Positions 17,815 through 36,628 of a stretch of DNA of 64,000 bases are shown piece after piece; positions within the stretch are counted from its first letter, which is position 1, and every line of letters begins with the position of its first letter. Location of the stretch: NCBI GenBank assembly GCA_000687695.1, contig JHWZ01000010.1, forward strand, positions 1-64,000, written 5' to 3'. The notes beneath the pieces are model-generated. The model did no database searches. It had not been told where the DNA came from and worked only from the letters and a program-made list of their open reading frames with translations. The position numbers and the translations under genes were made by a program. The DNA is from Lachnospiraceae bacterium P6B14. Its GTDB lineage: Bacteria > Bacillota > Clostridia > Lachnospirales > Lachnospiraceae.

Positions 17815-17875
17815 TTTGTCAATATTGTAATCAAAAAACATCTCCGGCATTTTTTCACCCAACGCTCAATTAAGT

Positions 17876-17901
17876 AAAATCAAACGCCGCTCCGGATCGT
17901 C
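17876..17901 (+). promoter_or_regulatory. Candidate ECF sigma promoter, copy 1 (coiled-coil membrane protein gene)
   Basis: GTAAAATC, with AAAATC at 17876-17881, then 16 nt, then CGTC (17898-17901) followed by TATATATATG. It matches four other sites in the window (29505, 32181, 34197, 36557) in -35 sequence, spacer length and -10. It lies 48 nt before the start codon. Confidence 0.65.
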
Positions 17902-17949
17902 TATATATATGTATGGCTCATATTATCCCATCGAAGGAGGATTTACACT

Positions 17950-19173
17950 ATGGACAGAGACTTGTTATTAAGCATGCTATACAAAGCAAAAAATCTGCTT
18001 GTCGAAGACGAAGGCATCATCAAAGACATGGATGCGTTAGTCATACGGAATAACAATGCACAGGCGGAAATACTGCAGATAACAAATAAATCGTATAAAC
18101 GATTGAGTTTTGATGAATATGTAGAAGATCATCCCTTACCTGAAAGGGGTGATTTTGAAGAATACAAAAGTGATTCTTCGTTTAGCTACTCTACCGGAGC
18201 AGATAAAGTATTCTCAATAATTGCAGTAATAGCACTAATTTTAGGTGCTTTATACACTCTTCTGGATGTAATCCCGACAATCCTTTTTGCATTAAAGTTT
18301 GATTTTAGCGAAGCCGGACATCGAGGGCTTTCTGCATTGATAGACATAGGAATAACCCTTGCCGTTGCAGGCGTTATCTTTGCGATTGGACAGCTTATTA
18401 CATGGTTAATTGACCGATCAGAAAGAGAAAAATCCTCGGTAATCGATCAGCAAAGATGGGAACAGGAATGGGTTGAATATAACCAGATGCTTGCTCAGGA
18501 TGAGCAGGAACTTCAGGAAAACTATATGAAAGCCGCCCAAGAAAGAGACCTGCAGATCAAAAACAGCCTAAATAAAGACGATGAAAGAATTATGGAGTTG
18601 GCTGAATCCATCGAAAAAACATCTGATGAAGCTAAAAAATACAAAGATCGTCACGATGAGATATGGCAGGAGCTTGACAATGACGTATTAGAGTTCTATC
18701 CGCCGGATTATCTGTATTCAGAAGCCGCAGAAGCTTTTTATAAATCTGTTTACAACATGAGAGCGGATACAATCAAAGAAGCTGTCAATCAATATGTGGA
18801 ATCCCAAGAATGGGAGAAAACCAGAGAGCTCCAAAAGCAACAGATTGAGGCGATAGAAAAATCGTCAAAACAGCAGATTAAGAATGCTAACGATATCGGG
18901 GCACGTATGGGGAAACTGCTTGCGGAAATGGATGCAAGCATCAACCGTGTCGGGAACGGTGTAGACCAGTTGCATGATGGCATGGACAGACTGAATGATT
19001 CCGTGCAGGATGTAGGAGATAATATCAGCGTTCAGACACAAGTGATACAAAAAGCGGCAACCTTCGCAGCCATCCAACGGCAGTATAACGCAGCTCAAAT
19101 CATAAATAGCCAGTACGAATTGATGAGTACAATTCGTAATCAGGGCTTTTTAACGAGACAAACGCTCACTTGA
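17950..19173 (+). CDS. Membrane protein with long coiled coil, function unknown
   Basis: A 407-aa protein. Residues 1-85 are polar, two membrane helices follow (about 87-118 and 133-156), and the rest (160-370) is Glu/Lys/Gln-rich and strongly coiled-coil-like. It includes a heptad-like segment near 320-350 (GNGVDQLHDGMDRLNDSV) resembling t-SNARE or methyl-accepting signalling helices. The tail is a basic/polar stretch. I recognise no family. AAGGAGG is 9 nt before the ATG. It is monocistronic with a candidate ECF-type promoter, tying it to the sigma-factor genes downstream. Both ends are probably cytoplasmic. Confidence 0.7.
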   Translation: MDRDLLLSMLYKAKNLLVEDEGIIKDMDALVIRNNNAQAEILQITNKSYKRLSFDEYVEDHPLPERGDFEEYKSDSSFSYSTGADKVFSIIAVIALILGALYTLLDVIPTILFALKFDFSEAGHRGLSALIDIGITLAVAGVIFAIGQLITWLIDRSEREKSSVIDQQRWEQEWVEYNQMLAQDEQELQENYMKAAQERDLQIKNSLNKDDERIMELAESIEKTSDEAKKYKDRHDEIWQELDNDVLEFYPPDYLYSEAAEAFYKSVYNMRADTIKEAVNQYVESQEWEKTRELQKQQIEAIEKSSKQQIKNANDIGARMGKLLAEMDASINRVGNGVDQLHDGMDRLNDSVQDVGDNISVQTQVIQKAATFAAIQRQYNAAQIINSQYELMSTIRNQGFLTRQTLT

Positions 19174-19249
19174 ATTCCAGAGGGAGCAGAAGGATTTATT
19201 CTATCTCAAACTAGACTTCTTCCGCAACCGACGTTTGTCTACGCTCTGA

Positions 19250-19276
19250 CCGGGCTGATCACTTGGATCAGCCCGG
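19250..19276. repeat. Palindromic repeat, copy 2
   Basis: CCGGGCTGATC, a 5-nt loop ACTTG, then GATCAGCCCGG: 11-bp perfect arms. It is closely related to the hairpin at 13809-13843. It sits in the gap between two convergent genes and could limit read-through or protect 3' ends, but there is no T run on either side. Confidence 0.6.
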
Positions 19277-19303
19277 CGCTGTAAAACCCATATACTATAT
19301 TCC

Positions 19304-20212: not shown

Positions 20213-20255
20213 TTGAATCACCTTTTGGTTTTTCAGTCTCTCATTTTATACTGAC

Positions 20256-20283
20256 ACTATACACTTATGTGGGGAAATGTCAA
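20256..20283 (-). promoter_or_regulatory. Promoter of the amidase gene
   Basis: Minus strand TTGACA (20283-20278), a 16-nt spacer and TATAGT (20261-20256). The -35 overlaps the stop codon of the preceding sigma-factor fusion gene, so the amidase can be expressed independently. Confidence 0.7.
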
Positions 20284-22493
20284 TACTTTTGTTCCGTGCA
20301 TGCCTTTCCGTTTTTCGGCATGCGATGTTCATTCATTGCTTTCAGAGTGTCGTCATAGCTTGTCCACTTGATCGATTTTACTCCGTTTTTCGGGAAGGAT
20401 GATATCTTCTTAGCCCTGCCGTCTATGTTAACCGTAAAACTATAATCATTCTTTTCACCGTCAAAAGAATACATAAGGTGAATGCACTTCTTCTCCGGAG
20501 CATACTGATACCGGACCTTTACATTCATAACTCCCCAGGACCATCTCCATCCGCACAGCTTCGTCTGAACTACCGCGCCATCGCGGATGGTCCATAACAC
20601 GAACTCGCTGTCAGTACGTCCCGTATCCATATTTGACACTGCTGTTTCAGTTATGATCTCAGGCACTCCGTCACCATCTATATCAAACACCGCACAGGTT
20701 CTGTCCGTCACTTCGTATGGACTTCCGTTTTCATACTTCCTGTCATAATGATCCGGCCCATAATCAGCCTCTTCTTTTAAAGCTTCCGCATAAAGATCAT
20801 AATACTCATCAGCATTTGCGGCTTCGTCAGATGAATCCTCGTCGGACGGATCTGCTTCCGATGTTTTGAATCTTTCTCCCTTTGGCTCACCGTATTTTTC
20901 ATCACTGTTATAATCCACTCTGAATATCTCATCATCCTGAGATACTTTTTTCTTTTTCTCGACGATCACGTTCCAGTTTTCATCAAAACTGAAGTAATCC
21001 CCTCCTTCGCTTCCATACCAATCATGATACGTGATCGCGATATAGTTTCCACGATCTACGTTATAAACCTTTGTCCAATCATGATCCTGATTATAAACAC
21101 CGGCGACAGTATTTCGTAGAGTCAAATCTTCTGCATTCTTCTGATCCCAGCCACCAGTTTCTACGACCTTTTCATCTATTATAGTAAATACATGTGGTTT
21201 CCCTCCCAGCCGTCTCAAGATTGAGCTTGGCGGAACATGACCCATCTCCTCTTCATATCCACCTGATTCTTCTCCGTATGCATAATCCGTCGACTCAAAC
21301 GTCATCAGCTCCGGGATGTCGTCATCATTTATATAGATCATCGCGTACTGATCATATTTATCCTTATTCGCGTTGAAAAACTCGGAGTAGAGCTTATTAT
21401 AGTCCACAGGTTCCGGTGTCGGCTCAGGTGTCGGTTCCTCTATAGCAGCTGCTGCCGGTGATACCGGCGCTTCTACGACCGGCTCACTCGGGCCCTGTGC
21501 TGCCTCGTATACCTTGTATCCACCAAAGCCCAAACCTGCTCCAGCGGCCACGATAGACGTTACCAGTATGATCTTTCCGACTACCGTTCCGAAAAAACCT
21601 GTAGTAGCTGCTGCAGACGTACCGGCTGCTGATGTTCCGGCAGTCGCGGTCGGGGACACCATTTCTATCGATCCTGTTACGTTTGGTGTTCCTGCAGTGG
21701 TATATCCTGCCGCTGATCCTGTAGCAGATGAAGCTGCAGAAGAGCTTGTAGTTGTTGCTGTCGTACCTGTCGCAATAGTTGACCCTGCAGACGTAGTTGC
21801 CGCAGAAGCTGCTACAGCTGCATGTGCGGCGCCTCCCATGGCTGCCGCCTTCTCTCCTCGCAGCAGGAAGAGCAACAGCGGAAGCGGCGCGATACTGTAG
21901 AAGTTGTAACCCTTCTTCTTGAGTTCCTCGGCCTCGGCCTTTATGTTTTTACGTCCGTAGTTCAGACGCGACTTAACAGTGTTTTCCGAGCAGCCGAGAG
22001 TATCTGCGATTTCCTTCACGGACATCTCTTCCACATAGAACATCATCACGCACAGACGCTGCTCATCCGATAGAGAGTCGATCATCGCGCGGATGATCTC
22101 TTGGCGTTCATTCGTCGTATAGTTCAACTCCGGCTGACGCTCGATAGACTCGTCCTCGATGTCGTAAACAAACTCTTCGCCTTCATCGTTTTCGCCTGAC
22201 ATGTCAGAGAACGTGAGCGGATTATTTTTACGCAAAGCAGACAGCGCGGTGTTCGCTACGATCTGGCCCACCCATCCCGGAAACTTTTCCGGATCATCGA
22301 GGGTATCCAGCTTCTGCCATGCCTTCATGTAGGCATCCTGCAGGACGTCCGCTGCCTCTGTCTGATTTTTCATGTACTTTATTGCTATGTAGTATTTTTC
22401 CTTACTGGTCTTTTCATACAACCATGAAAAGCCATCCTGTCGGCCGGCTCTTGCCGCCGCCACCGCTTCGGTAAACGATGAATATGTCTGCAT
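20280..22493 (-). CDS. ECF sigma factor fused to transmembrane and extracellular domains (paralogue A)
   Basis: A 737-aa protein. Residues 1-190 form an ECF sigma factor: region 2 (YIAIKYMKNQTEAADVLQDA, then WVGQIVANTALSALRK) and region 4 (LSDEQRLCVMMFYVEEMSVK with the helix-turn-helix LGCSENTVKSRLNYGRK). A low-complexity Ala/Thr/Ser/Gly stretch and one membrane helix follow (about 307-330, GKIILVTSIVAAGAGLGFGG). Then comes an EPTPEPTPEP linker and an extracellular region of about 390 residues with DIDGDGVPE and INDDDIPE motifs, like Ca-binding or FG-GAP-like loops. The sigma domain would thus be tethered to the membrane under the control of an outside domain. Start codon ATG with AGGAGAAGG upstream. 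It follows paralogue B by 21 nt. Release mechanism unknown. Confidence 0.88.
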   Translation of the reverse strand: MQTYSSFTEAVAAARAGRQDGFSWLYEKTSKEKYYIAIKYMKNQTEAADVLQDAYMKAWQKLDTLDDPEKFPGWVGQIVANTALSALRKNNPLTFSDMSGENDEGEEFVYDIEDESIERQPELNYTTNERQEIIRAMIDSLSDEQRLCVMMFYVEEMSVKEIADTLGCSENTVKSRLNYGRKNIKAEAEELKKKGYNFYSIAPLPLLLFLLRGEKAAAMGGAAHAAVAASAATTSAGSTIATGTTATTTSSSAASSATGSAAGYTTAGTPNVTGSIEMVSPTATAGTSAAGTSAAATTGFFGTVVGKIILVTSIVAAGAGLGFGGYKVYEAAQGPSEPVVEAPVSPAAAAIEEPTPEPTPEPVDYNKLYSEFFNANKDKYDQYAMIYINDDDIPELMTFESTDYAYGEESGGYEEEMGHVPPSSILRRLGGKPHVFTIIDEKVVETGGWDQKNAEDLTLRNTVAGVYNQDHDWTKVYNVDRGNYIAITYHDWYGSEGGDYFSFDENWNVIVEKKKKVSQDDEIFRVDYNSDEKYGEPKGERFKTSEADPSDEDSSDEAANADEYYDLYAEALKEEADYGPDHYDRKYENGSPYEVTDRTCAVFDIDGDGVPEIITETAVSNMDTGRTDSEFVLWTIRDGAVVQTKLCGWRWSWGVMNVKVRYQYAPEKKCIHLMYSFDGEKNDYSFTVNIDGRAKKISSFPKNGVKSIKWTSYDDTLKAMNEHRMPKNGKACTEQKY
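22151..22457. repeat. Near-identical tract shared with 24413-24719 (recent gene conversion or duplication)
   Basis: By direct comparison the 307 bp here match 24413-24719 with one difference, at 22401/24663. The next 200 bp on the regulatory side, also coding for identical or near-identical protein, carry many synonymous changes. It encodes sigma region 2. Confidence 0.9.
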
Positions 22494-22514
22494 AATTCCT
22501 TCTCCTATAGCATA

Positions 22515-24749
22515 TTAGTCTTTTACTCTGTATACGACTTTTTCGTTTATTAGGATTTTCCCTCCATTCTTATCCATATCGTAAAGGTTTACATAAAGGG
22601 ATCCCCATTCATTTCCGGATCGGTCCTTTTTAGTAAACAGCTTCTTAACTTCCGATCCATCCGGATTGCTACTATACACAATTACCTTTTTCATTCTGTA
22701 ATTCGGATAAACACAGAAGATTAACTTCTCCTTATAAATCCGACATCCAAAAACTAACCCAAGTCTTTTTATCTCTTTCAAATCCTGACCGTTGACCACG
22801 TATAAATAAGAATCCATCGGGCCTGCATCCGTTGGCTCGCACTCCGACTTTTCGATAACCATGTATTTATCATGTGCCAGTATTACGTCGCACTTCCTTC
22901 CGGATATCTTCTTAATCGTCTTACTATCCACATCAACCGCATACAAAATGCATCCGTTTCCCCAGCCCGTTCCATCCGATGACTCACATACATTTACATA
23001 TACGTAATTTTCGCAACATTGAGTTATCCTGGCTCCCGGCCCGTCATATCCCTTTTCATGGTGATACGGGATCTTTGTTATTACAGTTCGCTTTCCTTTT
23101 TCATTTTCGACTACCAGCTTATAATCCTTCACATAATAATAGCCATCTTTTTCCGATCCCGTGCGTATCCATGCTCCCCAGGTATCATATGCTCCTACCT
23201 GATCTTCAGCCTGTTCCCATTTGATTTCTGAAACAGTGTCTACGCTACTATCACTCGCCGATTCATTTTTATTCTGATCTGCCTTCGTCTCGTTCCGCTT
23301 GAAATCGATCTTTTTGAACTGTGTTCCGTCTGTTTCAAATGGCTCGACGATGCGGTAGGACAGTTTTTCCATATCAAACGTCAGGAAAAATGATCCCGAT
23401 CCGATACCTGTCGTATGCCCCTCGAATCGCCCGGAGATGATACGAAGTCCCTCCAAATACTCGAGATTACCGGTCCAATCCCGGTATTCACCACACATGT
23501 CCTCATTATATACGGCGGCGATTTCGGCCGGATCATCTGTCGGATCATGAGCATCACTCGCCCAATCCATTTCCCGCTGAATCTGAACAACCTTATCATC
23601 ACGGATCGTATAGAACCTGTAATAATAGCCATCATAAATATGCTCCCAATCTTCAACGGCATTGGTGTTCACTGAATTGATATAATGGACAACCATCTCC
23701 GGCGTTTCATCCTCGTCAAGCTTGATATACGCATAACCATAGTCTTTATCATCCGGATTGGAATAAGGAAGCTCTGCCCATCCCTCGTTTTTGAGTTCGT
23801 TTCTTGTTTCCGTGTACAACTGCTCCCAACGCGGAATATCAGGTGTCGGCTCCGGCGTCGGTTCTGATGTCGGTTCCTCCACTGTTGCTGCTGCCGGAGA
23901 TACAGGCGCCTCTGCAACCGGCTCACCTGATTCCTGAACAGATTGCATAATCTTGTATCCACCGAAGCCCAGTCCTGCTCCTGCAACTACGATAGAAGCT
24001 ACCAGCACGATCTTTCCGGCTACTGTTCCGAAAAATCCAGCAGTAGTTGCTGCTGCACCGGTGCCGGCTGCTGATGCAGCGGCCTGCGTAGCACCACCCA
24101 TGGCTGCCGCCTTCTCTCCACGCAGAAGCAGGAGTAGAAGCGGAAGCGGTGCGATACTGTAGAAGTTGTAGCCTTTCTTCTTGAGTTCCTCAGCCTCAGC
24201 CTTGATATTTTTACGTCCGTAATTCAGACGTGACTTGACTGTGTTTTCCGAGCAGCCGAGAGTATCTGCGATCTCCTTTACGGACATCTCTTCCACGTAG
24301 AACATCATCACGCACAAGCGCTGCTCATCGGAAAGAGAATCAATCATCGCGCGGATGATCTCCTGTCTTTCATTTGTCGTGTAGTTTAACTCCGGCTGAC
24401 GCTCGATGGATTCGTCCTCGATGTCGTAAACAAACTCTTCGCCTTCATCGTTTTCGCCTGACATGTCAGAGAACGTGAGCGGATTATTTTTACGCAAAGC
24501 AGACAGCGCGGTGTTCGCTACGATCTGGCCCACCCATCCCGGAAACTTTTCCGGATCATCGAGGGTATCCAGCTTCTGCCATGCCTTCATGTAGGCATCC
24601 TGCAGGACGTCCGCTGCCTCTGTCTGATTTTTCATGTACTTTATTGCTATGTAGTATTTTTCTTTACTGGTCTTTTCATACAACCATGAAAAGCCATCCT
24701 GTCGGCCGGCTCTTGCCGCTGTTACTGCTTCGGTAAAACTGTTAAACAT
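22515..24749 (-). CDS. ECF sigma factor fused to transmembrane and extracellular domains (paralogue B)
   Basis: A 744-aa paralogue of the 20280-22493 protein. The first 205 residues (ECF regions 2 and 4) are nearly identical. A shorter Ala-rich stretch and a membrane helix follow (about 250-272, AGKIVLVASIVVAGAGLGFG), then an EPTPEPTP linker and a different extracellular part: a DEDETPEM loop followed by a C-terminal half with repeated strands (GCILYAVDVDSKTIKKISG, LYVVNGQDLKEIKRL) that reads like a DUF5050-type beta-propeller. Sharing the sigma module while varying the outside domain suggests two sensors feeding one promoter type. It ends 21 nt before paralogue A. A weak upstream promoter (TTAACG-N17-TTTAAT) is possible. 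Confidence 0.88.
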   Translation of the reverse strand: MFNSFTEAVTAARAGRQDGFSWLYEKTSKEKYYIAIKYMKNQTEAADVLQDAYMKAWQKLDTLDDPEKFPGWVGQIVANTALSALRKNNPLTFSDMSGENDEGEEFVYDIEDESIERQPELNYTTNERQEIIRAMIDSLSDEQRLCVMMFYVEEMSVKEIADTLGCSENTVKSRLNYGRKNIKAEAEELKKKGYNFYSIAPLPLLLLLLRGEKAAAMGGATQAAASAAGTGAAATTAGFFGTVAGKIVLVASIVVAGAGLGFGGYKIMQSVQESGEPVAEAPVSPAAATVEEPTSEPTPEPTPDIPRWEQLYTETRNELKNEGWAELPYSNPDDKDYGYAYIKLDEDETPEMVVHYINSVNTNAVEDWEHIYDGYYYRFYTIRDDKVVQIQREMDWASDAHDPTDDPAEIAAVYNEDMCGEYRDWTGNLEYLEGLRIISGRFEGHTTGIGSGSFFLTFDMEKLSYRIVEPFETDGTQFKKIDFKRNETKADQNKNESASDSSVDTVSEIKWEQAEDQVGAYDTWGAWIRTGSEKDGYYYVKDYKLVVENEKGKRTVITKIPYHHEKGYDGPGARITQCCENYVYVNVCESSDGTGWGNGCILYAVDVDSKTIKKISGRKCDVILAHDKYMVIEKSECEPTDAGPMDSYLYVVNGQDLKEIKRLGLVFGCRIYKEKLIFCVYPNYRMKKVIVYSSNPDGSEVKKLFTKKDRSGNEWGSLYVNLYDMDKNGGKILINEKVVYRVKD
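24413..24719. repeat. Near-identical tract shared with 22151-22457
   Basis: Second copy of the 307-bp segment encoding sigma region 2, with one mismatch to the first copy. Flanking paralogous sequence has diverged at synonymous sites. Confidence 0.9.
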
Positions 24750-24809
24750 GCGTCGTTTCCTTTTCTTTATGTATTATTAAACAATATAGTTAACATTCCG
24801 TTAAATGAC

Positions 24810-25253
24810 TTATTTCTTGATTTTTGCATTCTCTAAATAATAACCATTATACAACCATTCCAAAGCTTTGCTACTGGAATCAGCATAAAAACATCCTGTT
24901 ACAGTTATTCTTTTCCCATTTTTCTTTTTAAACTTGGACTTCTGACCCTTCGCCGGAAATATCTGTATTCTCTTTACTTTCTCTGTATACCCACTGATAT
25001 CAACCATTACTGCTTTTGATAAGACAATGACATAGCCGGTCTTTTTTTCTTCAACACCCTTACCACCTTCTTCTTCATAATACGTTGTATAGGTAACCTT
25101 TTTAAGTTTTCCGGTAAGAGTACATTTCTTTTCACTTGTAAGAGTCTTTGCGCTCGACAAAGTCGGTACATTATTTCCGATTCCTACAAATCCAGATACC
25201 AAAGCAAACGTCAGCATCACACAAACAATGATCCTTTTCATTCCTTTTTTCAT
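24810..25253 (-). CDS. Small secreted protein, function unknown
   Basis: A 147-aa protein with a signal peptide (about residues 1-27, RIIVCVMLTFALVSGFVGIG) and a basic beta-rich domain (CTLTGKLKKVTYTTYYEEE, KRITVTGCFYADSSS). The strand pattern resembles a small OB- or lipocalin-like fold, but I recognise no family. AGGGAGGA precedes the ATG. It is 19 nt downstream of the SPOR-like gene and 60 nt before the sigma fusion gene, so it belongs to the same leftward operon. Confidence 0.7.
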   Translation of the reverse strand: MKKGMKRIIVCVMLTFALVSGFVGIGNNVPTLSSAKTLTSEKKCTLTGKLKKVTYTTYYEEEGGKGVEEKKTGYVIVLSKAVMVDISGYTEKVKRIQIFPAKGQKSKFKKKNGKRITVTGCFYADSSSKALEWLYNGYYLENAKIKK

Positions 25254-25272
25254 AGTATTTTTCCTCCCTATA

Positions 25273-25884
25273 TCATTTTCTTTCTCCGGAATACTTTACA
25301 TACGCATCCGGGTAATATTGTTGTACTTCACTTAAGTTCAACTCTGCCTCATCCTTCGACGAGTACTTTCCTGCAGTTACGACGTACCATTTTTCCGAGT
25401 TCAGATTTGACCAGTCTGTCGTGACGCATACATATGCGTCCAATCCTTTTCTTCTGAATCTCTTGGCGTCTTTCTTGGCTTCTCTCTTACTCTTAAAAGC
25501 GCTGCACCAAATCCCCCAAAATGGTTCTTCTTTTTCATCCTCAATTTCCGGAGCGGCGGTAGGTACCGATTCTTCATCTTCGGAAACAGTTGTCACGTCA
25601 TCCAATTCCGTATTATCTATTTCTGATTCTTTTTCCGCATTTGCACTTACGACAGGCTCTTCTGTTTCTTCCTGTATTTCTTCTTCGAGATTCACTTTTG
25701 TTTCGTTCACGGTAGCCGCCGAAGGAGATACAGGCATTTCAACAACCTCCTGAGACTCAGGCTCCGATGAAAAACTCTTCGCAAGCATTATTCCACCGAA
25801 AACCGAACCACCAAACAAAACGAGAATCAAAACAGCTATTACAACCTTACCACCTGTGCTTGCAGACGGACTTTTATCTTCCAT
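25273..25884 (-). CDS. Membrane protein with extracellular SPOR-like domain
   Basis: About 203 aa: a short cytoplasmic N-terminus, one membrane helix (about 13-35, VVIAVLILVLFGGSVFGGIM), a long acidic Glu/Val/Thr linker, and a C-terminal SPOR-like domain starting WGIWCSAFKSKREAKKDAKR with the typical second half KWYVVTAGKYSSKDEAE. SPOR domains bind denuded peptidoglycan glycans. The frame opens at 25938, but AAAGGGG fits the ATG at 25884, and the earlier start would overlap the FHA gene. It lies between the FHA/zinc-ribbon gene and a small secreted protein, suggesting a role in cell-wall sensing. Confidence 0.8.
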   Translation of the reverse strand: MEDKSPSASTGGKVVIAVLILVLFGGSVFGGIMLAKSFSSEPESQEVVEMPVSPSAATVNETKVNLEEEIQEETEEPVVSANAEKESEIDNTELDDVTTVSEDEESVPTAAPEIEDEKEEPFWGIWCSAFKSKREAKKDAKRFRRKGLDAYVCVTTDWSNLNSEKWYVVTAGKYSSKDEAELNLSEVQQYYPDAYVKYSGERK

Positions 25885-25903
25885 GTTTACCCCTTTCTTC
25901 GCG

Positions 25904-27523: not shown

Positions 27524-27575
27524 AGCATCCTCCCTAAGATTTTATTTAATACAAGCAATTATTATCCGAATTTGT

Positions 27576-28544: not shown

Positions 28545-28602
28545 AATACCGATCCTTTCCTTGTCACATCTTCCAAAACCTGATTTTACACATCATCTAT
28601 AC

Positions 28603-29295
28603 TTAAATCTTGAATAACCAGAACAAACCTGCACGTGAAACTATACCGATTGCTACGAAGATTACTACTATTATTATCAGCACGCAAAACTTCGATCTTG
28701 CATAGTTTCTGAGGTTAATATTTCCATGGCTTCTGAATGAAAGGATCAACAATAATACTGTTTCAATGATCCATCCTATAAGCGGAATGATCGATAAGAT
28801 CAAGAACAATAAATCCCATCCAAAATATCCCCACATACCGATAGGCTTGTAATTGTAGTTTGGTTTATAATTCCAAATAGGTGCAAATCCGTAGCCCGAT
28901 GCATATCCACCCTGTGGAGGAACGTTCTGATTGTAGCCCTGAGCCGGGCCCTGCTGGTTGTATCCTGCCTGAGCTCCCTGTACATATCCATTCTGTCCCG
29001 TCTGTGCCGGATTCGGAGCCATCGCCTGCATGCGTGCAAGCTCCTCCTGCTGTGCTTTTTTCTTTTCCTGATGTTCCTGTGTCATCTTGTTGATCTTCTC
29101 ATTCAGTGTGTCCGCCGCTTTCTTTGCACCTTCAACTCCCTTGCCTGCAACGGCCTTTGCCTTCTGACCCATCTCTGAGAAATTAATAACCGGTTCCTGA
29201 TTATCAGCTGCTGTCGATCCTCCTACAGGAGTTCCACAGCTCCCGCAGAAGGATGCTCCCTCTCTTATTTCTGCTCCACAATTCTTACAAAACAT
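28603..29295 (-). CDS. Zinc-ribbon protein with C-terminal membrane helices
   Basis: About 230 aa. Zinc ribbon MFCKNCGAEIREGASFCGSC at the N-terminus, a Lys/Ala/Gln-rich coiled-coil-like stretch (about 40-85), a Gln/Tyr/Gly-rich low-complexity segment (about 90-140), then two or three membrane helices (DLLFLILSIIPLIGWIIETV and FCVLIIIVVIFVAIGIVSRA). The frame opens at 29328, but AGGAGGT is ideally placed for the ATG at 29295. That same ribosome site contains the stop codon of a 51-codon gene upstream. Function unknown. Confidence 0.78.
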   Translation of the reverse strand: MFCKNCGAEIREGASFCGSCGTPVGGSTAADNQEPVINFSEMGQKAKAVAGKGVEGAKKAADTLNEKINKMTQEHQEKKKAQQEELARMQAMAPNPAQTGQNGYVQGAQAGYNQQGPAQGYNQNVPPQGGYASGYGFAPIWNYKPNYNYKPIGMWGYFGWDLLFLILSIIPLIGWIIETVLLLILSFRSHGNINLRNYARSKFCVLIIIVVIFVAIGIVSRAGLFWLFKI

Positions 29296-29299
29296 TTTT

Positions 29300-29455
29300 C
29301 TACCTCCTGGTTTTATCATCCATCTCACAGGTCTTCACAAACCCTTCCATATCCTGTCTGATCAGATTCTGAAAGATGATCATTATCTGAATCTCATCTC
29401 TTAACTCTTTCCTTTTTTCCTCATCCGGTCCACGGATAAGATTCTTATCAATCAT
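29300..29455 (-). CDS. Small charged protein (51 aa), first gene of the zinc-ribbon operon
   Basis: A short open frame from ATG at 29455 to TAG at 29300, beginning MIDKNLIRGPDEEKRKELRD and continuing with an amphipathic helix (IQIMIIFQNLIRQDM). A G-rich ribosome site (AGGGCGGTGG) lies upstream. Its stop is embedded in the AGGAGGTAG ribosome site of the next gene, so translation is probably coupled. It starts about 40 nt downstream of the candidate ECF promoter. No family recognised. Codon content and the absence of another explanation for the 200-nt gap support it. Confidence 0.55.
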   Translation of the reverse strand: MIDKNLIRGPDEEKRKELRDEIQIMIIFQNLIRQDMEGFVKTCEMDDKTRR

Positions 29456-29504
29456 AATGACCACCGCCCTTCGTGCATTCGGCTTTTCCGCCTTACACTC
29501 ATAT

Positions 29505-29530
29505 GACGCAGGTCATCATGATCAGGTTTT
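29505..29530 (-). promoter_or_regulatory. Candidate ECF sigma promoter, copy 2 (zinc-ribbon/FHA/SPOR operon)
   Basis: Minus strand ATAAAACC (-35 core AAAACC at 29530-29525), 16 nt, CGTC (29508-29505) followed by ATATG. It is nearly identical to the copy at 34197-34222, including CCTGATC after the -35. It would drive the leftward run from the 51-aa gene to the small secreted protein and perhaps the sigma fusions. Confidence 0.7.
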
Positions 29531-29586
29531 ATTGTTTTAAACTTTTTTCAAAAAAATATCTTTGCCGAGATTACAGATCAGCTGTG

Positions 29587-30516
29587 TCATATCAGGTCGT
29601 CATTTCCTGACCCTCCTCCGGAGTGTCCACCTCCGGAATGACCACCGGAACTACCCCCACCGGAGTTTCCTCCACCTGAGCTGTGTCCTCCTGAATCGTG
29701 ACTTGCAGAAGATCTTTTTCTCCCTTTGCTTATATATACTGTTATCTTTTCTTTAAGTATGTCCACTTCTCCGCTTTTGGGAGAGGTCTCTATGATTCTT
29801 CCCTTTTTTACAGCGGATGAATAACGATATTCTATGACTACGTGCTTCTTAACGGCCTTTTTAATCTTGTCAAATATAGGCAGCCAATTATCTCTTGATG
29901 TTAGAATATCCCTGACAGATTTACGCACTGCATTTTTATTCTTACCCTTTATTTCCGTAACATCCACCAACCAATCAAATTCCTCAGACAACTCATCTAC
30001 TGTTGGTTCAGTTGTCGGCTCCGGTGTCGGCTCGAGCGTCGGTTCCGGTGTCACCTCCGGAGTTGGCTCAGGCGTTGCTATAGGTGTCGGTTCGGCTGAC
30101 GATTTGATTTCCGCCACTTGCTGCTCTGCACCACCGAAGTTTCCCAATGTCATATAAGCAAAGACACCCGCACCACCTGCAAGCAATACCAGAAGCACGA
30201 TAGCAACTGCTATCTTTACTCCCTTACCGCTCTTTTCCGGTTTTTCCCCAACCGATGATTTTTCTTCGATAACAGAAGGCTCTTCCACAGGTATCTGCTC
30301 AACGACCGGCTCCTCGACAGGGATGACCGATTCTGCTGGTTCTTCCGGCTCTTCTGGAATAGACATGCCTCCGATAGGAAAATCATTCTCCACAGGCACC
30401 CCGCCTATTGGAAACTCCTCCACCGGTATTCCGCCAGCAGGAAAGTCTTCATCTGATGCTTTTATGTCATCCTGCACCGGCACTCCGCCGATGGGAAAAT
30501 CCTCAAACGACTCCAT
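29587..30516 (-). CDS. Membrane protein with FPIGGVPV repeats and PASTA-like extracellular domain
   Basis: A 309-aa protein. The N-terminal 60 residues contain four copies of a DFPIGGVPV-like motif, then an acidic Pro/Glu/Val linker, a membrane helix (about 101-122, IAVAIVLLVLLAGGAGVFAY), an EPTPEVTPEPT spacer, and an extracellular part ending in a PASTA-like segment (VIEYRYSSAVKKGRIIETSP, then ITVYISKG). The last 35 residues are almost only Gly, Ser and His. PASTA domains bind uncrosslinked peptidoglycan or beta-lactams, but here no kinase is attached. It is 11 nt downstream of the Ig-like gene and so shares its ECF-type promoter. Confidence 0.78.
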   Translation of the reverse strand: MESFEDFPIGGVPVQDDIKASDEDFPAGGIPVEEFPIGGVPVENDFPIGGMSIPEEPEEPAESVIPVEEPVVEQIPVEEPSVIEEKSSVGEKPEKSGKGVKIAVAIVLLVLLAGGAGVFAYMTLGNFGGAEQQVAEIKSSAEPTPIATPEPTPEVTPEPTLEPTPEPTTEPTVDELSEEFDWLVDVTEIKGKNKNAVRKSVRDILTSRDNWLPIFDKIKKAVKKHVVIEYRYSSAVKKGRIIETSPKSGEVDILKEKITVYISKGRKRSSASHDSGGHSSGGGNSGGGSSGGHSGGGHSGGGSGNDDLI

Positions 30517-30527
30517 GTCGCCCTCCT

Positions 30528-32099
30528 TTATTTCTTAATCCTGATTATTCTTGAACACTCTCCTTCAATCCCTTTACCTTCTGCACTGACCTTTATCTTG
30601 TATCCTCTCATATCAGCAGACTGGATCGATTTATTCGTGAATAATGTAAGCTCTCTCCATTTGCTTTTATCTTTTTTTGTTTTGTAATACAAGTGATACT
30701 TCTTTACGCCCTTAAGTTTTTTCCACTTAATTATCGTCTTTCCATTTTTTTTGGTATATGTAAGCTTAGTTACTTTGGGTGGCTTTACCTGCACAAGAAT
30801 CTTTATAGATGCTTCTTCCGTGGTATCCGTCGCCGCTGCGGTGACAGTGATATTTGCCGATCCGTAATTCTTGGCTTTTACTGTTCCATCTGAATCCACA
30901 CTTACTACATCCGGCTTACTGCTTTCAAACGTAAATGACGCATCTGATGGTTGGATCTGAGCGAGGTTTATGATGCTCTTCCCCGGCTTTCCATATATGA
31001 TCGAAACCGGCGAATCTCCTGTAAGAATCAGTTTATACGACCATATCGCATAGAGCGTCATATTCTGTTTTGGATAAAGGGTGTTTCCACCTACATACTC
31101 AGGGGTTGTTGATTCCTGAGATGTCGACCATCCCTTAAACTCATACCCTTCAAGTGACGGACTGAGCTTAGGAATCTGATAACCCTCCTTTGCATCACAG
31201 TTTACATAATCGGTGTCAAGAGTCTCATTATTTCCCTTTGGTCCCATACTATAAGTAATCTTGTATTTCTCTCTGACATAAACACCATCGGCTATAAATG
31301 TTCCCCCAATGCCATCACCGGCTCCGAAATAATAATACCTGTTATTTGATTCGCTGCCCAGGGTAAATGTATATGTACTTGAGTTGGCGCCTTTTATAAG
31401 TGTGATTTCATCTACACTTTTAATTGTCGGAGTTGATGCATATCCCCATTCATATGTATAATCTGTACCCTTTCCCCCGACAGCTGATCCTACCAGGGTT
31501 ACCTTCGAACCAGATTCTTTGTACGTATTTATATCACCTTCTATACGAACATCAGATATTCTGTTATAGGTAGTAAATGATGCAGAAGCCACTGCGGTTG
31601 TGTATCCGCTTATATTGGCAGTCACTTTAAGAGTATAGCTTACTCCGTTTTTGTAAACAGAGCTTTTCAATTCCCTGTTCGTGTGCCTGTAAGATCTGTT
31701 GTTTGAACTACCGGTCCAACTCGTTCCTGTCCAACTTTCGACTTTCTGATTACTCGAGTTATCATAAACTTCATAGCTCAAACTCGAATTCGGAACAACT
31801 TGATCAACTGCGTAGAGCATATTAAGATTATTACCAATCCAAAACTCTTTATCATTCACCAATGTGTTATAGTTTTTCTGACTTATCTCATTATCGGTAA
31901 ATGCTTTCTTCTTTATATGGATACTGGAGGTAATGACAGTCGGCGTAGTTGCTGTCGCCAATTTCTTCGTCTCCTTTAACTCTTTCGCCATGGCCGGACC
32001 ATCCTGAAACCCCGCCATACCTGTAATCATAAGCGTTCCTGATAAGACTATTCCTATAAACGCCCTTACAACTGATGATTTACGTCCCTTTTTCTGCAT
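30528..32099 (-). CDS. Secreted protein with Listeria-Bacteroides and bacterial Ig-like (Big_2) domains
   Basis: A 523-aa protein with a signal peptide (about 8-38). It has a long N-terminal beta region, a Listeria-Bacteroides (flg_new) repeat around residue 325 (GYEFKGWSTSQESTTPEYVG, then YAIW), a Big_2-like domain around 360-430 (KPDVVSVDSDGTVKAKNYGS) and a C-terminal Lys-rich fibronectin-like domain (KKYHLYYKTKKDKSKWRELT). It is probably a surface adhesin or scaffold held to the wall by charge, as no LPXTG is present. A candidate ECF promoter lies upstream at 32181-32206. The downstream partner is the PASTA-like membrane protein. Confidence 0.82.
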   Translation of the reverse strand: MQKKGRKSSVVRAFIGIVLSGTLMITGMAGFQDGPAMAKELKETKKLATATTPTVITSSIHIKKKAFTDNEISQKNYNTLVNDKEFWIGNNLNMLYAVDQVVPNSSLSYEVYDNSSNQKVESWTGTSWTGSSNNRSYRHTNRELKSSVYKNGVSYTLKVTANISGYTTAVASASFTTYNRISDVRIEGDINTYKESGSKVTLVGSAVGGKGTDYTYEWGYASTPTIKSVDEITLIKGANSSTYTFTLGSESNNRYYYFGAGDGIGGTFIADGVYVREKYKITYSMGPKGNNETLDTDYVNCDAKEGYQIPKLSPSLEGYEFKGWSTSQESTTPEYVGGNTLYPKQNMTLYAIWSYKLILTGDSPVSIIYGKPGKSIINLAQIQPSDASFTFESSKPDVVSVDSDGTVKAKNYGSANITVTAAATDTTEEASIKILVQVKPPKVTKLTYTKKNGKTIIKWKKLKGVKKYHLYYKTKKDKSKWRELTLFTNKSIQSADMRGYKIKVSAEGKGIEGECSRIIRIKK

Positions 32100-32180
32100 T
32101 TGTTGCCTCCTTGCCAGTACGGTGACTGTTTCAAAATATTTGTTTTTTGAATAAGGGTCATACCTGCCCCCATATATTAT

Positions 32181-32206
32181 GACGATTATCTATGGCTTTA
32201 GATTTT
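32181..32206 (-). promoter_or_regulatory. Candidate ECF sigma promoter, copy 3 (Ig-like surface protein gene)
   Basis: Minus strand ATAAAATC (-35 core AAAATC at 32206-32201), 16 nt, CGTC (32184-32181) followed by ATAATATATG. It lies about 80 nt before the gene start. Confidence 0.65.
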
Positions 32207-32214
32207 ATTATTTT

Positions 32215-34134
32215 TTATTTTTTTATTCTTTGCTTTCTTGCAATAGTCCATTCGCTGTAGTTTCCCTGCTTATTCACCGCCCTGACACGGACATAGTAGG
32301 TTTTACCTGCCCTAAGACCCTTGAACTTCACGCTTCCCGAGTCTACTGCCTTGGTTTTTACGCCTGAATCAAAACTTTTGCTTACAGCACACTGCACCTC
32401 AAACGACTCAGATCCTCTCGGGTTCATATCGTAAACTCTTACCTTGATCCCTCTCTTTCCCGATGCATTTACCAGAAAATGCGGAGTACGGTTTTCCTCA
32501 TAAACATCGCCATCCCGGTCGTCGTCATCATCATCCTCATCATCATACTCTCCTGACGGATCCGGAGTCGGGGTAGGATTAGGAGTCTTTTCAGGTTCCG
32601 GTGAAGGTGTTGGTGTTTTTCCGGATCGGTCATCCGACGGATCTGATCCACCATAGCGCGACTCATCATAGTCCGGAACCGCATAGGATTTATCATCAAA
32701 ATACTTCCACTTATCAGCTGTTTTTACCAAAACCTTGTTCTGAAAAAGATACATTGCGAAAACCGGAGTATTGTACTTGTTCGTGCTTGTATTCTGATCA
32801 ATATTGTATTCATGTATTCCGTCTGTTCCTCCGTAATAAAGCTTGTTTGCGAGAACAGCTATACATCTGTTACTGTCCGATGGGATATCGAGCGCTGAGA
32901 TATCCGAAAAATCGCTGCCTCTGCTCTCACACGGAACACCACCATTCATGAATACCCATCTGTCTGCTACATAGTAGTAAGGATTTGTTTTTCCTGAAGC
33001 TTTCGGGAAGTATCCGTCATAATCCGAACCGAACTTTCCTGTGATTCCGTCGAGCTTCTGAGAATAGTAGGCATCCAGATCGTGACTCCCCATGAATGAA
33101 GATGTCTTTGCGTACATAAACTGGTGAGTCACACTATCCTTTTGACCGTCATCCCATGTAACATCGAAATAATACCAGCTTCCATGCATCTTTACGGCAT
33201 TCCATGCATGACTCCTGCTCCAAACATTGTAGCTTGTAAAGCCCATATCCTTCATCAGATGATTGAGCACTGCAGCATAACTCTGACAAACGATTCTTCC
33301 GGACTCAACAATCTCAATTGGTGTGTGGATTTTATAGTACTCCGGATGATATGCTTCAAGCTGGCATTCTTTGGTTGCGTACTCAGCTGAAAGAGCCACT
33401 CTGTCATAGAGATACAAAAGTATGTCCTCATCCGACATAGATGAATTCTTCTTTGGAAGCGCCTCGATATCTGCCAAAAACCTTTTGTATTTCTCCACTT
33501 CTTCTTTTATTTTCTCAACTCGGTATATGCTGGCCACGCGCATATATACATTTTCCGAATCCTTTGTTGCTGACATTGCAGTGAAGAGCGTACACAGATT
33601 GGGATACTCAGCAATAGCATCAGCAAGATATCCCATAACCAACTGTTTTGTCGGAACCCCGCCAAACTTATCAAGGCTCAGGGTAAACTTGATATAACTC
33701 TTAGCTCCATTTGCATCTGTGCCTCTATCATCAGAATAAACATTTACCGCCTCTGCTTTTTTTCCATCCAGATCATAGAGAAACGCCTTCATCTGCTGAT
33801 TCATCGTTCTTCCGACATAATTTGATACGGCATCGTCGTATTCATCATTTTCCCTGCTCGCTTTGGCAGCCATTTTCCTTTTTTTATTCTGTTTGTTAGA
33901 AAAATCATACTCTACAAAACCTGCCAATCCGCCTCCGGAGATACTATAGCTATCCTCATCATTTTCGATCTCGACATCCATGTCCTGATAGAGCTTCTCA
34001 ACAGAAGTCTGTGTTTTTACTTCTTTTTTCTGCGCAGCCTGTGCTACATTCCCGATTCCCGGGTTCACTCCTGCAATAGCTGCTACTACAATCATTGCTA
34101 CAATCATCTTTCTTCTCAAGGTTTTGTTCATCAT
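32215..34134 (-). CDS. Secreted transglutaminase-like protein with fibronectin type III tail
   Basis: A 639-aa protein: signal peptide (about 8-33), a helical N-terminal half, then a transglutaminase-like core with Cys in GRIVCQSYAAVLNHLMKDMG, His in WSRSHAWNAVKMHGSWYYFD and Asp in the following VTWDDGQ. After this come a region of about 150 residues, a Pro/Thr and Asp-rich linker (PEPEKTPNPTPTPDPSGE) and a C-terminal fibronectin-like domain (KGLRAGKTYYVRVRAVNKQG). The catalytic triad is complete. A candidate ECF promoter is at 34197-34222. The substrate is unknown; cell-surface protein cross-linking or cleavage is plausible. Confidence 0.85.
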   Translation of the reverse strand: MMNKTLRRKMIVAMIVVAAIAGVNPGIGNVAQAAQKKEVKTQTSVEKLYQDMDVEIENDEDSYSISGGGLAGFVEYDFSNKQNKKRKMAAKASRENDEYDDAVSNYVGRTMNQQMKAFLYDLDGKKAEAVNVYSDDRGTDANGAKSYIKFTLSLDKFGGVPTKQLVMGYLADAIAEYPNLCTLFTAMSATKDSENVYMRVASIYRVEKIKEEVEKYKRFLADIEALPKKNSSMSDEDILLYLYDRVALSAEYATKECQLEAYHPEYYKIHTPIEIVESGRIVCQSYAAVLNHLMKDMGFTSYNVWSRSHAWNAVKMHGSWYYFDVTWDDGQKDSVTHQFMYAKTSSFMGSHDLDAYYSQKLDGITGKFGSDYDGYFPKASGKTNPYYYVADRWVFMNGGVPCESRGSDFSDISALDIPSDSNRCIAVLANKLYYGGTDGIHEYNIDQNTSTNKYNTPVFAMYLFQNKVLVKTADKWKYFDDKSYAVPDYDESRYGGSDPSDDRSGKTPTPSPEPEKTPNPTPTPDPSGEYDDEDDDDDDRDGDVYEENRTPHFLVNASGKRGIKVRVYDMNPRGSESFEVQCAVSKSFDSGVKTKAVDSGSVKFKGLRAGKTYYVRVRAVNKQGNYSEWTIARKQRIKK

Positions 34135-34196
34135 AGTGGTGTCCTCCTTTATTTTCCGCAGTTTTCACTGCTTTCGTTTTTGTTTTACACCTATAT

Positions 34197-34222
34197 GATG
34201 CAAGAAGTTTCGATCAGGTTTT
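34197..34222 (-). promoter_or_regulatory. Candidate ECF sigma promoter, copy 4 (transglutaminase-like gene)
   Basis: Minus strand ATAAAACC (-35 core AAAACC at 34222-34217), 16 nt, CATC (34200-34197) followed by ATATAGG. It differs from the others by CATC instead of CGTC, but shares the extended CCTGATC with copy 2. Confidence 0.6.
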
Positions 34223-34242
34223 ATGAATTTCAAATTTTTTTT

Positions 34243-34282
34243 AAAAAAATGTCCCCTCCCCGGCAAAACTGCCGAAAAGGGG
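34243..34282 (-). terminator. Terminator of the lipoprotein/sigma-fusion operon
   Basis: On the minus strand an interrupted hairpin (CCCC...CGGCA / TGCCG...GGGG between 34282 and 34253) is followed by seven T (34249-34243). It separates the lipoprotein operon from the ECF-type promoter just downstream. Confidence 0.75.
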
Positions 34283-34313
34283 ATAAAAATCGTATGTTGT
34301 CGATTCAAAAAAA

Positions 34314-34958
34314 TCAGATTTCTCTCCTGACTGCCTTCTTTCGTCTGTCCTTGTAGCTGAACTTCATGCGTTTTTTCAGCCATTCGGGTTCAGGCCTTTG
34401 ACGGATTCTCATGCACGCAACCTCCTCGCCATGCTCGTTAAACACATCATTCTGATACACGTCGGCCCATTTTTTCGTTTTTTTGTCATCTGAGTTCAGA
34501 TCCACGTATTCCATCGTGTATTCTCCGCCTTTTGAATTAAGCTCCTGACAATACAGAGTTTCCTCGTTTATATATTGGACAATCTCGAGCCATCCGTCCT
34601 CATCCATATCCGTCACACAGTACTTTCCGTCATTTAAGCCTTCCAGCTCATAAGCCTCCCCGATTTCCACAGGCTCATCAAACTCACATTCATCGCACCA
34701 CAGATTAATGTTTTGGATCAGTATGTCTATCTGACCATCGACAGACGGAGCGACATCTGTCCCGCCGCCCGATACTGCTTCCGCGGCAGATCCTGATACG
34801 GTCTCCGTCGCACTGCCGGAAACTCCTTCTCCCGAAACAGCGCTTGACTCTGCCATTATTTCAGACTGATCGGTCGTAGACAGGTTATTTCCGCATGCAT
34901 TCAATATAACCATGATCATGCATACTGCAAGGATGAATGCTTCATTTTTACGTTTCAT
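34314..34958 (-). CDS. Lipoprotein, function unknown
   Basis: About 214 aa with a lipoprotein signal peptide (FILAVCMIMVILNACGNN; Cys in LNAC is the likely lipidated residue). A Ser/Gly/Val low-complexity stretch follows (SAVSGEGVSGSATETVSGSA), then an extracellular domain with DMDEDGWLEIVQYI, the same kind of acidic Ca-binding-like loop seen in the sigma-fusion extracellular domains, and a very basic C-terminus. The ATG at 34958 has GGAGGA 5 nt upstream. It lies 24 nt after the sigma fusion at 34983-36533, so it may be a partner or ligand sensor for it. Confidence 0.75.
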   Translation of the reverse strand: MKRKNEAFILAVCMIMVILNACGNNLSTTDQSEIMAESSAVSGEGVSGSATETVSGSAAEAVSGGGTDVAPSVDGQIDILIQNINLWCDECEFDEPVEIGEAYELEGLNDGKYCVTDMDEDGWLEIVQYINEETLYCQELNSKGGEYTMEYVDLNSDDKKTKKWADVYQNDVFNEHGEEVACMRIRQRPEPEWLKKRMKFSYKDRRKKAVRREI

Positions 34959-34982
34959 CAGTTCCTCCATGTGAATAGTGTT

Positions 34983-36533
34983 TTAACGCTGCCTGCTTTT
35001 TATCTCTCCCAGCGAGCGCACTTTTCTTACCCGGTATTTTCCGTCATCTATCAACTCCATTGTTGCTTCCAGCCTCTGTGAATAGATATCTTCTCCGGTT
35101 TCCCAGTAATAATTGTACTCATCCTCTGCGATCTTCTTTGATATAACACCTTCTCTAGTGTAGGTAATGACCATTTCAGAGCCTTTTATCACCGTGTTCT
35201 CTATTGTGACGTTTTTCCAAATATAACCGTAGCCTTCCTTCCCCCAGCCCAACTCATCTTCTGAGATATTGCCTCTAAAGTCCCCTATGGCAAGTTCATC
35301 CCCGATCACACGGATCATAGGAACGGAACTGGCTTTATCGGTAAATCTGTAATCCGTTATCGCGCTGAGGATCCTATTTGCCTCATCAACCTTCATCCTC
35401 GGTCTTTCCTGACGATCTCCAAACAGCTTATTGTCTTCATAATAATATATTCCGTTTAGGATGATCCTGCTTATCTCCCTTTTTGTGAGCTCACGCCCGC
35501 TTAGATCATCCGGCACACACGCCAATATCGTTTCGAGATCGGTCTTATCAAGACCGCCGTGAACCAGCGAAGGTATCTCCTCATCACTCACTGGCCGTGG
35601 TTCAGAATCCGGGGTCATACTGCTTTGTATACTCTTATCCAAAGGGCCTTCATCGGACCGGTCATTCGCGTTCACGGATGACTCCAACCGGGTATTACCA
35701 ACAGAAGCCGGACCATCTCGATTTGCTAAGAATACGCCTCCGGCGGCAATTCCCGTAACCGCCACTGCTCCTACCACACCCAATGTGATTTTTCCTCCGA
35801 GAGTCCCCAAAAAGCCTGATAATCCCGACGCTACGCTCCCTGCAGCAAGTCCGCCAATAGCGAGACCTTCGGGCACACCGGCAAACTCTGCTGCATCTTC
35901 CGCGAGAAGACGAATGATAACGGTAACAGGTGTGAGTCCGAAGAAGTTGTAACCTTTCTTCTCGAGAAGATCCGCCTTTTTCTTTAGGTGCTTTCTGGCG
36001 TAATTTAGTCTGGACAACACTGTTCCTTTCGGACACTCAAGTATCTGCGAAATATCCTCAACACTGATCTCCTCTACATAGTACATCAGCACGCATACGC
36101 GTTGTTCATCCGGAAGTGTATCGATCATCTCCGAAAGGATTTCCTGTCGTTCCTTAACCGTGAATGATATCTCCGGGTGTATCTCGTCTCTCTCATCCTC
36201 GATCTTCAGGTATTTTGTTGTCTCATCATCATCTCCCAAGGATGAAAAAAGAATCGGATTCTTTTTTCTAAGTGCATCAAGCGCTGTACGTGCGACAATC
36301 TGTCCCAGCCATGCCTCTATCTTTTCCGGATCATCCAAGTCGCTGATTCTTTCCCATGCCTTCACATAGGCATCCGCCACAACATCCTTTGCGTCATCGG
36401 TATTCTTCATATACTTCAGCGCAATATAATACTTAGATTTGTAGGTTTCCTCATATATTTGGGCAAATCCGTCTTTGTCGCCCTGCATGGCTGACTTTGC
36501 TGCCTCTGTCAGACTCTCAAACTTTTTCAACAC
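34983..36533 (-). CDS. ECF sigma factor fused to transmembrane and extracellular domains (paralogue C)
   Basis: A 516-aa protein. ECF region 2 (YIALKYMKNTDDAKDVVADA, WLGQIVARTALDALRKKNPI) and region 4 (PDEQRVCVLMYYVEEISVED, LECPKGTVLSRLNYARKHLK) occupy residues 1-185. A Gly/Ala-rich segment and membrane helix follow (about 243-268, KITLGVVGAVAVTGIAAGGV), then an extracellular domain of about 230 residues with no recognised fold. It is more distant from paralogues A and B and closest to the divergent soluble sigma factor. AGGAG is 4 nt before a GTG and 7 nt before a TTG codon; either could start translation. Followed by a lipoprotein gene. Confidence 0.87.
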   Translation of the reverse strand: MLKKFESLTEAAKSAMQGDKDGFAQIYEETYKSKYYIALKYMKNTDDAKDVVADAYVKAWERISDLDDPEKIEAWLGQIVARTALDALRKKNPILFSSLGDDDETTKYLKIEDERDEIHPEISFTVKERQEILSEMIDTLPDEQRVCVLMYYVEEISVEDISQILECPKGTVLSRLNYARKHLKKKADLLEKKGYNFFGLTPVTVIIRLLAEDAAEFAGVPEGLAIGGLAAGSVASGLSGFLGTLGGKITLGVVGAVAVTGIAAGGVFLANRDGPASVGNTRLESSVNANDRSDEGPLDKSIQSSMTPDSEPRPVSDEEIPSLVHGGLDKTDLETILACVPDDLSGRELTKREISRIILNGIYYYEDNKLFGDRQERPRMKVDEANRILSAITDYRFTDKASSVPMIRVIGDELAIGDFRGNISEDELGWGKEGYGYIWKNVTIENTVIKGSEMVITYTREGVISKKIAEDEYNYYWETGEDIYSQRLEATMELIDDGKYRVRKVRSLGEIKSRQR

Positions 36534-36556
36534 GTTACTCCTTTTTTGGTTTTTAT

Positions 36557-36582
36557 AAAATCTACGACCCTTCTCATTCGTC
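36557..36582 (+). promoter_or_regulatory. Candidate ECF sigma promoter, copy 5 (soluble ECF sigma gene)
   Basis: ATAAAATC (-35 core AAAATC at 36557-36562), 16 nt, CGTC (36579-36582) followed by TGAATTAATG. It lies in the divergent region between two sigma-factor genes and would place +1 at about 36590. Confidence 0.65.
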
Positions 36583-36628
36583 TGAATTAATGGGACTATC
36601 TATAACCACACGGAATGAGGACACGGCT

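Follow-up and report, generated by a model that had tools for sequence, protein, structure and literature searches.

Extracytoplasmic-function (ECF) sigma factors of the SigW/SigM type in Bacillus have envelope-related targets. They consist of a sigma2 and a sigma4 domain and read promoters with AAC at -35 and CGT at -10, and both features recur in the system described here. It lies in a stretch of 64,000 nucleotides from Lachnospiraceae bacterium P6B14 (GenBank assembly GCA_000687695.1, contig JHWZ01000010.1, positions 1 to 64,000, forward strand), called the window in the following, and consists of five sites with the motif RTAAAAYC-N16-CRTC among four genes for ECF sigma factors (ECF_A to ECF_D), whose best solved relative is SigW (5wuq). 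According to PMC8103513, the AAC/CGT layout is a general hallmark of ECFs. Unlike the Bacillus factors, the tailed ECFs of the window have a hydrophobic segment and a tail fused to the sigma domain, and no separate anti-sigma gene was recognised in family scans of the neighbouring genes; the NCBIfam equivalog model of SigW gave the four ECFs 98 to 104 bits, compared to a curated 209. Sigma domain, membrane segment and outer extension are also joined in a single protein in ECF48, ECF52 and ECF53 (e.g., SCO4117) and in IutY (PMC8999054, PMC5826349); the topology of the window proteins is a prediction. ECF52 is described as restricted to Actinobacteria and as having a zinc finger (PMC8999054). 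That finger is an anti-sigma domain in the C-terminal extension, whereas ECF_A, ECF_B and ECF_C gave no zinc-ribbon match and C2a, a tailed ECF from another contig of the same genome, has an N-terminal one. Furthermore, the published motif of SCO4117 (CSGYN-17-SRHA) is unlike that of the window. The SigI/RsgI systems of Clostridium thermocellum (PMC6056542) share with ours several paralogous sigma factors with outer sensors, class-specific promoters with limited cross-talk and an A-tract; however, sigma factor and sensor are separate there and the -10 element is CGAA, whereas here they are fused and the -10 element is CRTC or TGTT. With respect to ECF group IV, the sites fit the AAC/CGT layout and site 5 precedes ECF_D, and site 2 reaches ECF_A and ECF_B only via an inferred gene run.

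Our data point toward the five sites being the promoters of a local ECF regulon with two promoter classes for two types of sigma factor, class I for ECF_A and ECF_B and class II for ECF_C and ECF_D, a reading to which we assign a probability of roughly 0.7. An earlier note, made from the sequence of this DNA, had described five copies of one ECF-type promoter, clustered locally and each in front of a correctly oriented gene, as one regulon. Indeed, all five sites are present with a spacer of exactly 16 nt (the positions given were right except that the first two bases, RT, had been left out), and every site lies upstream of a gene on the same strand. The last base of the -10 element is 48, 81 and 62 nt from the start codon at sites 1, 3 and 4, 49 nt from the start of an unlisted open reading frame (ORF) of 51 aa at site 2, and 46 nt from TTG 36629 at site 5, which was taken as the start of ECF_D because ATG 36590 has no ribosome site. 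A terminator-like hairpin (34283-34252) is found just before site 4. The genome (35 contigs, 2,686,994 bp, 98% complete) has eight exact matches to RTAAAAYC-N16-CRTC and none to the reversed pattern. Five of the eight are inside a single 18.7-kb span (p ~7e-7 with uniform placement, an optimistic figure because the motif was derived from these same sites); the other three each lie within an open frame of at least 100 codons and lack the full downstream extension. Across 39 genomes of the genus, the short motif has a background of a few matches per genome, and hence it is the 19-kb cluster that is unusual, not the motif. At the level of sequence, the independent evidence for the sites is their recurrence in relatives.

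Closer inspection revealed that the pooled pattern probably merges two classes. The Y of RTAAAAYC separates class I, TAAAACC-N16-CRTCATATRRGTG (sites 2 and 4; mostly behind a T/A tract, as judged by eye), from class II, TAAAATC-N16-CGTC-N8-TGGG (exact at sites 3 and 5, partial at site 1), and the two also differ downstream (ATATRRGTG versus N8-TGGG), so that the single promoter and single regulon of the earlier note are not supported. When at most two mismatches were allowed, the search for the extended class I motif gave 15 matches in six of the genus genomes (two in our own, eight in G006, two in G016 and one each in G023, G025 and G021) and none with the reversed control; 14 of them look genuine, and the one in G021, with two mismatches, sits inside an ORF. 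A comparison of 13 of these strings (the G021 match and one of two identical strings were left out) showed a constant C at -35, ATAT-..-GT downstream and conservation also in the spacer. In G006 and G016, class I sites are located upstream of relatives of the zinc-ribbon gene and upstream of relatives of the site 4 target (identities of 29-35%); one site of G006 lies directly upstream of an ECF gene. The exact form TAAAACC-N21-TATRRGTG was found 18 times in six of the 39 genomes; it is present in five of the six genomes with an ECF of the type described here (search threshold E 1e-25) compared to one of the other 33 (Fisher p 6e-5, with shared ancestry disregarded).

Beyond the genus, a GTDB-wide scan for exact class I, from which the tool may leave out records of our own genome, gave 16 places, 13 of them in records named Eubacterium sp., Lachnospira, Lachnospiraceae, Lachnoclostridium or Clostridiales. 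The remaining places were in Bacillus atrophaeus (intergenic), Chitinophaga and Sulfurimonas (both inside reading frames), where an ECF search at E 1e-15 gave identities of 26% (Bacillus) and 31% (Chitinophaga) and no match in Sulfurimonas. All four further class I genomes that were searched (UBA5912, CHK178, RUG115 and AS22) encode a tailed ECF, with best identities of 46-60%. The shorter TAAAACC-N16-CRTCATAT had ten exact matches in nine of 299 family genomes (two in our own) and four with the reversed control; the other eight, one in each of eight genomes, were set aside as background, without looking at the surroundings.

The four ECF sigma factors mentioned in the earlier note all gave Pfam matches to sigma region 2 (r2) and region 4 (r4). 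Its account did not include the tails or the second cassette described below. By a hydropathy threshold, the sigma domain is followed by a hydrophobic segment and then a tail in ECF_A (borderline, barely reaching the threshold), ECF_B, ECF_C and the two ECFs C2a and C2b of the second cassette; ECF_D has neither segment nor tail. The sigma domains of ECF_A and ECF_B are identical in 189 of 192 residues, and 200 aligned bases are 100% identical, but the tails differ; identity between A/B-type and C/D-type sigma domains is 48-56%. The ECF_A tail matches one protein of G006 (45% over 170 aa), and the ECF_B tail matches another (45% over 230) as well as a protein of G016 (36% over 322). In a tree of sigma domains only, ECF_A groups with ECF_B (support 92/88, under the starred level), and three groupings named from the tails were rejected (approximately unbiased test, p 0.010, 2e-6 and 0.005). 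From the 14 ECF matches, the underlying alignment left out the fourth ones of AS22 (28%) and CHK178 (30%), that of Chitinophaga and two of G343, which are the same proteins as G025 rows already included; the tree was also calculated without the rows of CHK178_b, CHK178_c, Bacillus and G018. Judged from these sequences, sigma domains and tails have different histories, and the discordant groupings fit gene conversion or tail exchange. AS22_a combines a helix of the class I type with a tail resembling those of ECF_C (27%, E 6e-10) and its G025 counterpart (29%, E 4e-12). A 290-residue structure model of ECF_B (alignment of five rows; mean predicted local distance difference test score 61, predicted template modeling score 0.34) was fair in the sigma part and uninformative in the membrane part and was not used as evidence, including its helix 201-216 after sigma4.

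The second cassette is located on contig C2 of the same genome (L124, C2:130000-149900) and comprises zinc-ribbon proteins, an amidase that is 64% identical to the window amidase, and the two tailed ECFs, around which lie four promoters that form a class of their own, class III (TAAAACC-N16-TGTTGTATAGGTG). A zinc ribbon is present at the N-terminus of both ECFs (by Pfam in C2a, by eye in C2b), and their sigma parts are far more alike than their tails. Elsewhere in the genus, class III has a single match, in G007, about 5 kb from a tailed ECF; the gene that follows looks similar, by eye, to the genes for small membrane proteins that two of the C2 promoters precede. The three classes can be compared with their putative readers. 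Region 4 of sigma factors reads the -35 element. In the genus, proteins of classes I and III have SENTVKSRLNY as the sigma4 recognition helix and those of class II have P(K/E)GTV(L/M)SRLNY, in parallel to TAAAACC (I, III) versus TAAAATC (II). Classes I and II share a sigma2 loop that is two residues shorter than the Y(N/T)GESSFASW of class III, in parallel to CRTC (I, II) versus TGTT (III). In known ECFs, the sigma2 loop sets the choice of the -10 element, and a loop swap redirects it (PMC8103513).

The best reading of these data is that ECFs tethered to the membrane amplify their own expression and control insulated regulons that are local and comprise envelope and secreted proteins. In our model, the tethered ECFs would reside in the membrane with the long tail outside, and the tail would act as the sensor. 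A signal would free the sigma domain, probably via cleavage or a change in shape; proteolysis is thought to activate fused sigma factors of other groups (PMC8999054). The freed sigma domain would then activate genes whose products are zinc-ribbon membrane proteins or secreted proteins of the envelope, with ECF_A and ECF_B reading class I (sites 2 and 4) and the ECF_C/ECF_D pair reading class II (sites 3, 5 and probably 1). We infer the pairing of sigma factors and promoter classes, the operon structure, the topology, the sensory role of the tail and the mode of release. Both circuits would amplify themselves, because ECF_A and ECF_B are in the run after site 2 and ECF_D follows site 5, and since ECF_A and ECF_B have nearly identical sigma domains and unlike tails, two sensors would feed one set of promoters.

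It is also conceivable, although we consider it unlikely, that all four ECFs have overlapping specificity and read both classes, giving one pooled regulon with several inputs. The sigma domains of the A/B and C/D types are related, spacing is the same and the -10 elements are nearly identical; furthermore, G025 has a class I site with only C/D-type ECFs, and class II as a pattern of its own is not above its control at one mismatch. A pooled regulon fits less well with the constant C at -35 and the downstream ATAT-..-GT of class I sites and with the replaced sigma4 helix of ECF_C and ECF_D. Somewhat less probable is the dependence of all five sites on the soluble sigma factor, as assumed in the earlier note, which would make the classes mere variation. 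ECF_D is the only untailed ECF and has its own site, and RTAAAA-C, the 16-nt spacer and the CRTC element are common to all sites, but class I is present in G006 and G016, in which the ECF search (E 1e-25) gave A/B-type ECFs only, and the C/T split at -35 tracks the differences downstream and in the sigma4 helix. The dependence on ECF_D is disfavoured because its own helix is of the class II type. If the sites were instead operators of a regulator that binds DNA, or a short repeat in several copies, this would explain why conservation is not confined to the -35 and -10 elements but includes bases of the spacer and further downstream; such a reading is improbable given the classical AAC/CGT layout, the distance of 46-81 nt to start codons, the ECF genes in each cluster and the change of the sigma2 loop that accompanies the altered -10 element of C2. 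Chance matches in A/T-rich intergenic DNA can be dismissed in spite of the post hoc definition of the short motif, its background and the lack of a one-mismatch excess, as the exact matches cluster, the extended class I motif had no reversed match in 39 genomes, and for class I the GTDB-wide scan contradicts chance as well; the five sites are real.

Several observations weigh against the assignment of two classes to two sigma types. The genome scan bears out the clustering of exact matches, but with one mismatch allowed (TAAAAYC-N16-CGTC), 57 matches compared to 61 with the reversed pattern leave no excess. The exact class II form was found in our own genome only among the 39 genomes. With one mismatch, the rest of the genus had four matches, including one close to the ECF pair of G025, whose counterparts of ECF_C and ECF_D are the closest among the relatives; the total of six is under the ten of the reversed control, which leaves class II as the less well supported class, with three window sites (one imperfect) and one in G025. 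G018 has C/D-like ECFs, and neither class motif was found in it; a search of its ECF cluster with loose patterns also found no motif. A class I site occurs in G023 without any ECF of this type and in G025 with only C/D-type ECFs; both bins derive from one metagenome run, the G023 contig is short and that of G025 ends near the site, and a binning gap is a possible reason. Six ORFs separate site 2 from ECF_B, and three terminator-like sites (24055, 23399 and 28288) lie in this run on the same strand, in a scan that was near chance overall. Outside the genus, the helix of CHK178_a has SEGTVK, the loop residues GQ are replaced in the ECFs of AS22, RUG115, UBA5912 and CHK178 despite their class I sites, and AS22 and CHK178 each hold several tailed ECFs, which makes the reader of the class I site ambiguous. 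In any case, the correlation of residues and promoters comprises three classes only and has to be taken as a hypothesis.

The genes behind the sites (Table 1) agree with the earlier proposal of envelope and secreted proteins as targets, with a sigma factor gene among them.

Table 1. Promoter sites and associated genes, in window coordinates
Feature	Coordinates	Strand	Remarks
Site 1, full 28-mer	17874-17901	+	class II-like, GTAAAATC-N16-CGTC; downstream TGGG imperfect
Site 2, full 28-mer	29505-29532	-	class I; with extension 29496..29532; T/A tract upstream
Site 3, full 28-mer	32181-32208	-	class II, TAAAATC-N16-CGTC-N8-TGGG; with extension 32169..32208
Site 4, full 28-mer	34197-34224	-	class I, -10 CATC; T7A8 tract; with extension 34188..34224
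Site 5, full 28-mer	36555-36582	+	class II; precedes ECF_D; with extension 36555..36594
Site 1 target	17950..19173	+	407 aa, two hydrophobic segments, coiled-coil-like membrane protein, no Pfam family
51-aa ORF	29300..29455	-	directly after site 2; no Pfam family
Zinc-ribbon membrane protein	28603..29328	-	true start probably inward of 29328
Zinc-ribbon protein	27576..28544	-	one hydrophobic segment; Pfam score under curated cut-off
Zinc-ribbon, FHA-domain protein	25904..27523	-	multi-segment
SPOR-domain protein	25273..25938	-	one hydrophobic segment
Small protein	24810..25253	-	N-terminal hydrophobic segment, no Pfam family
ECF_B	22515..24749	-	744 aa; ECF sigma, hydrophobic segments, long tail
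ECF_A	20280..22493	-	737 aa; sigma domain 98% identical to ECF_B, tail different
Site 4 target	32215..34134	-	signal-like N-terminus, fn3 domain; weak transglutaminase-type NCBIfam match, far under cut-off
Site 3 target	30528..32099	-	Big_2/Flg_new protein, N-terminal hydrophobic segment
Second gene after site 3	29587..30516	-	one hydrophobic segment; PASTA match barely above cut-off
ECF_D	36629..37204	+	soluble, untailed; start probably TTG 36629
ECF_C	34983..36533	-	516 aa, tailed ECF, divergent to ECF_D
Lipoprotein-like gene	34314..34970	-	after ECF_C; no Pfam family

Gaps of 19-60 bp and one overlap of 35 bp separate or join the genes of the site 2 run. Relatives of the first ORF of this run, of 51 aa, were also found behind class I promoters in G006, in G016 and, with weak similarity, in G023 (E 0.046), which makes the encoded protein a candidate modulator. 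Pfam and NCBIfam scans of the neighbouring genes recognised no known anti-sigma family; such a role could be taken by the tail or by the 51-aa protein. The amidase gene (19304-20221) is preceded by a sigma-A-like promoter at 20283-20256 on the minus strand (TTGACA-N16-TATAGT, 11 of 12 positions matching, in a scan that was at chance overall), and the amidase may therefore be expressed separately. Divergent to site 1, at 16223-17730 on the minus strand, are an ATPase and a small zinc-ribbon-like membrane protein; the ATPase has a weak match to the PADLOC candidate PDC-S01, the sole match among the eight neighbours scanned.

After class I and III sites, 15 of 24 leaders contain a short hairpin with z of -2 or lower compared to simple base shuffles, often before the ribosome site, which could be a 5' stabiliser or an RNA element. 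Proteins of about 160-170 aa that have an LYEE stretch in common (by eye) and no Pfam family above cut-off are encoded behind a class I promoter in three genomes (L164, L170 and L172). An identical motif string at the identical position on two contigs of G000 (C19:693-719 and C20:693-719) suggests a shared contig end or a repeat.

For the evolution of such one-piece membrane sensors in bacteria of the Lachnospiraceae type, we offer a tentative model, which we rate slightly below even. Gene conversion would keep the sigma domains alike within a genome while the tails drift apart and are swapped, giving several sensors a promoter class in common, and duplicated cassettes would be insulated by a change of one promoter half together with the matching sigma domain (the -35 element and sigma4 in ECF_C/ECF_D, the -10 element and the sigma2 loop in C2).

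In sum, the separate pieces are of known kinds, and the system appears to be a variant that combines fused sensors with shared sigma domains and with divergence of half-promoters between cassettes; no description of this combination, or of such a sensory system in Lachnospiraceae-type bacteria, was found in the open-licence literature searched. If the model is true, one genome holds three natural sets of sigma-promoter pairs that differ at single promoter halves. The evolution of sigma factor insulation would then be directly testable, with the second cassette as a natural experiment on the avoidance of cross-talk between related sigma factors, and the promoters would be candidate orthogonal parts for gut anaerobes. 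The finding would also expose a sensory system of Lachnospiraceae-type bacteria.

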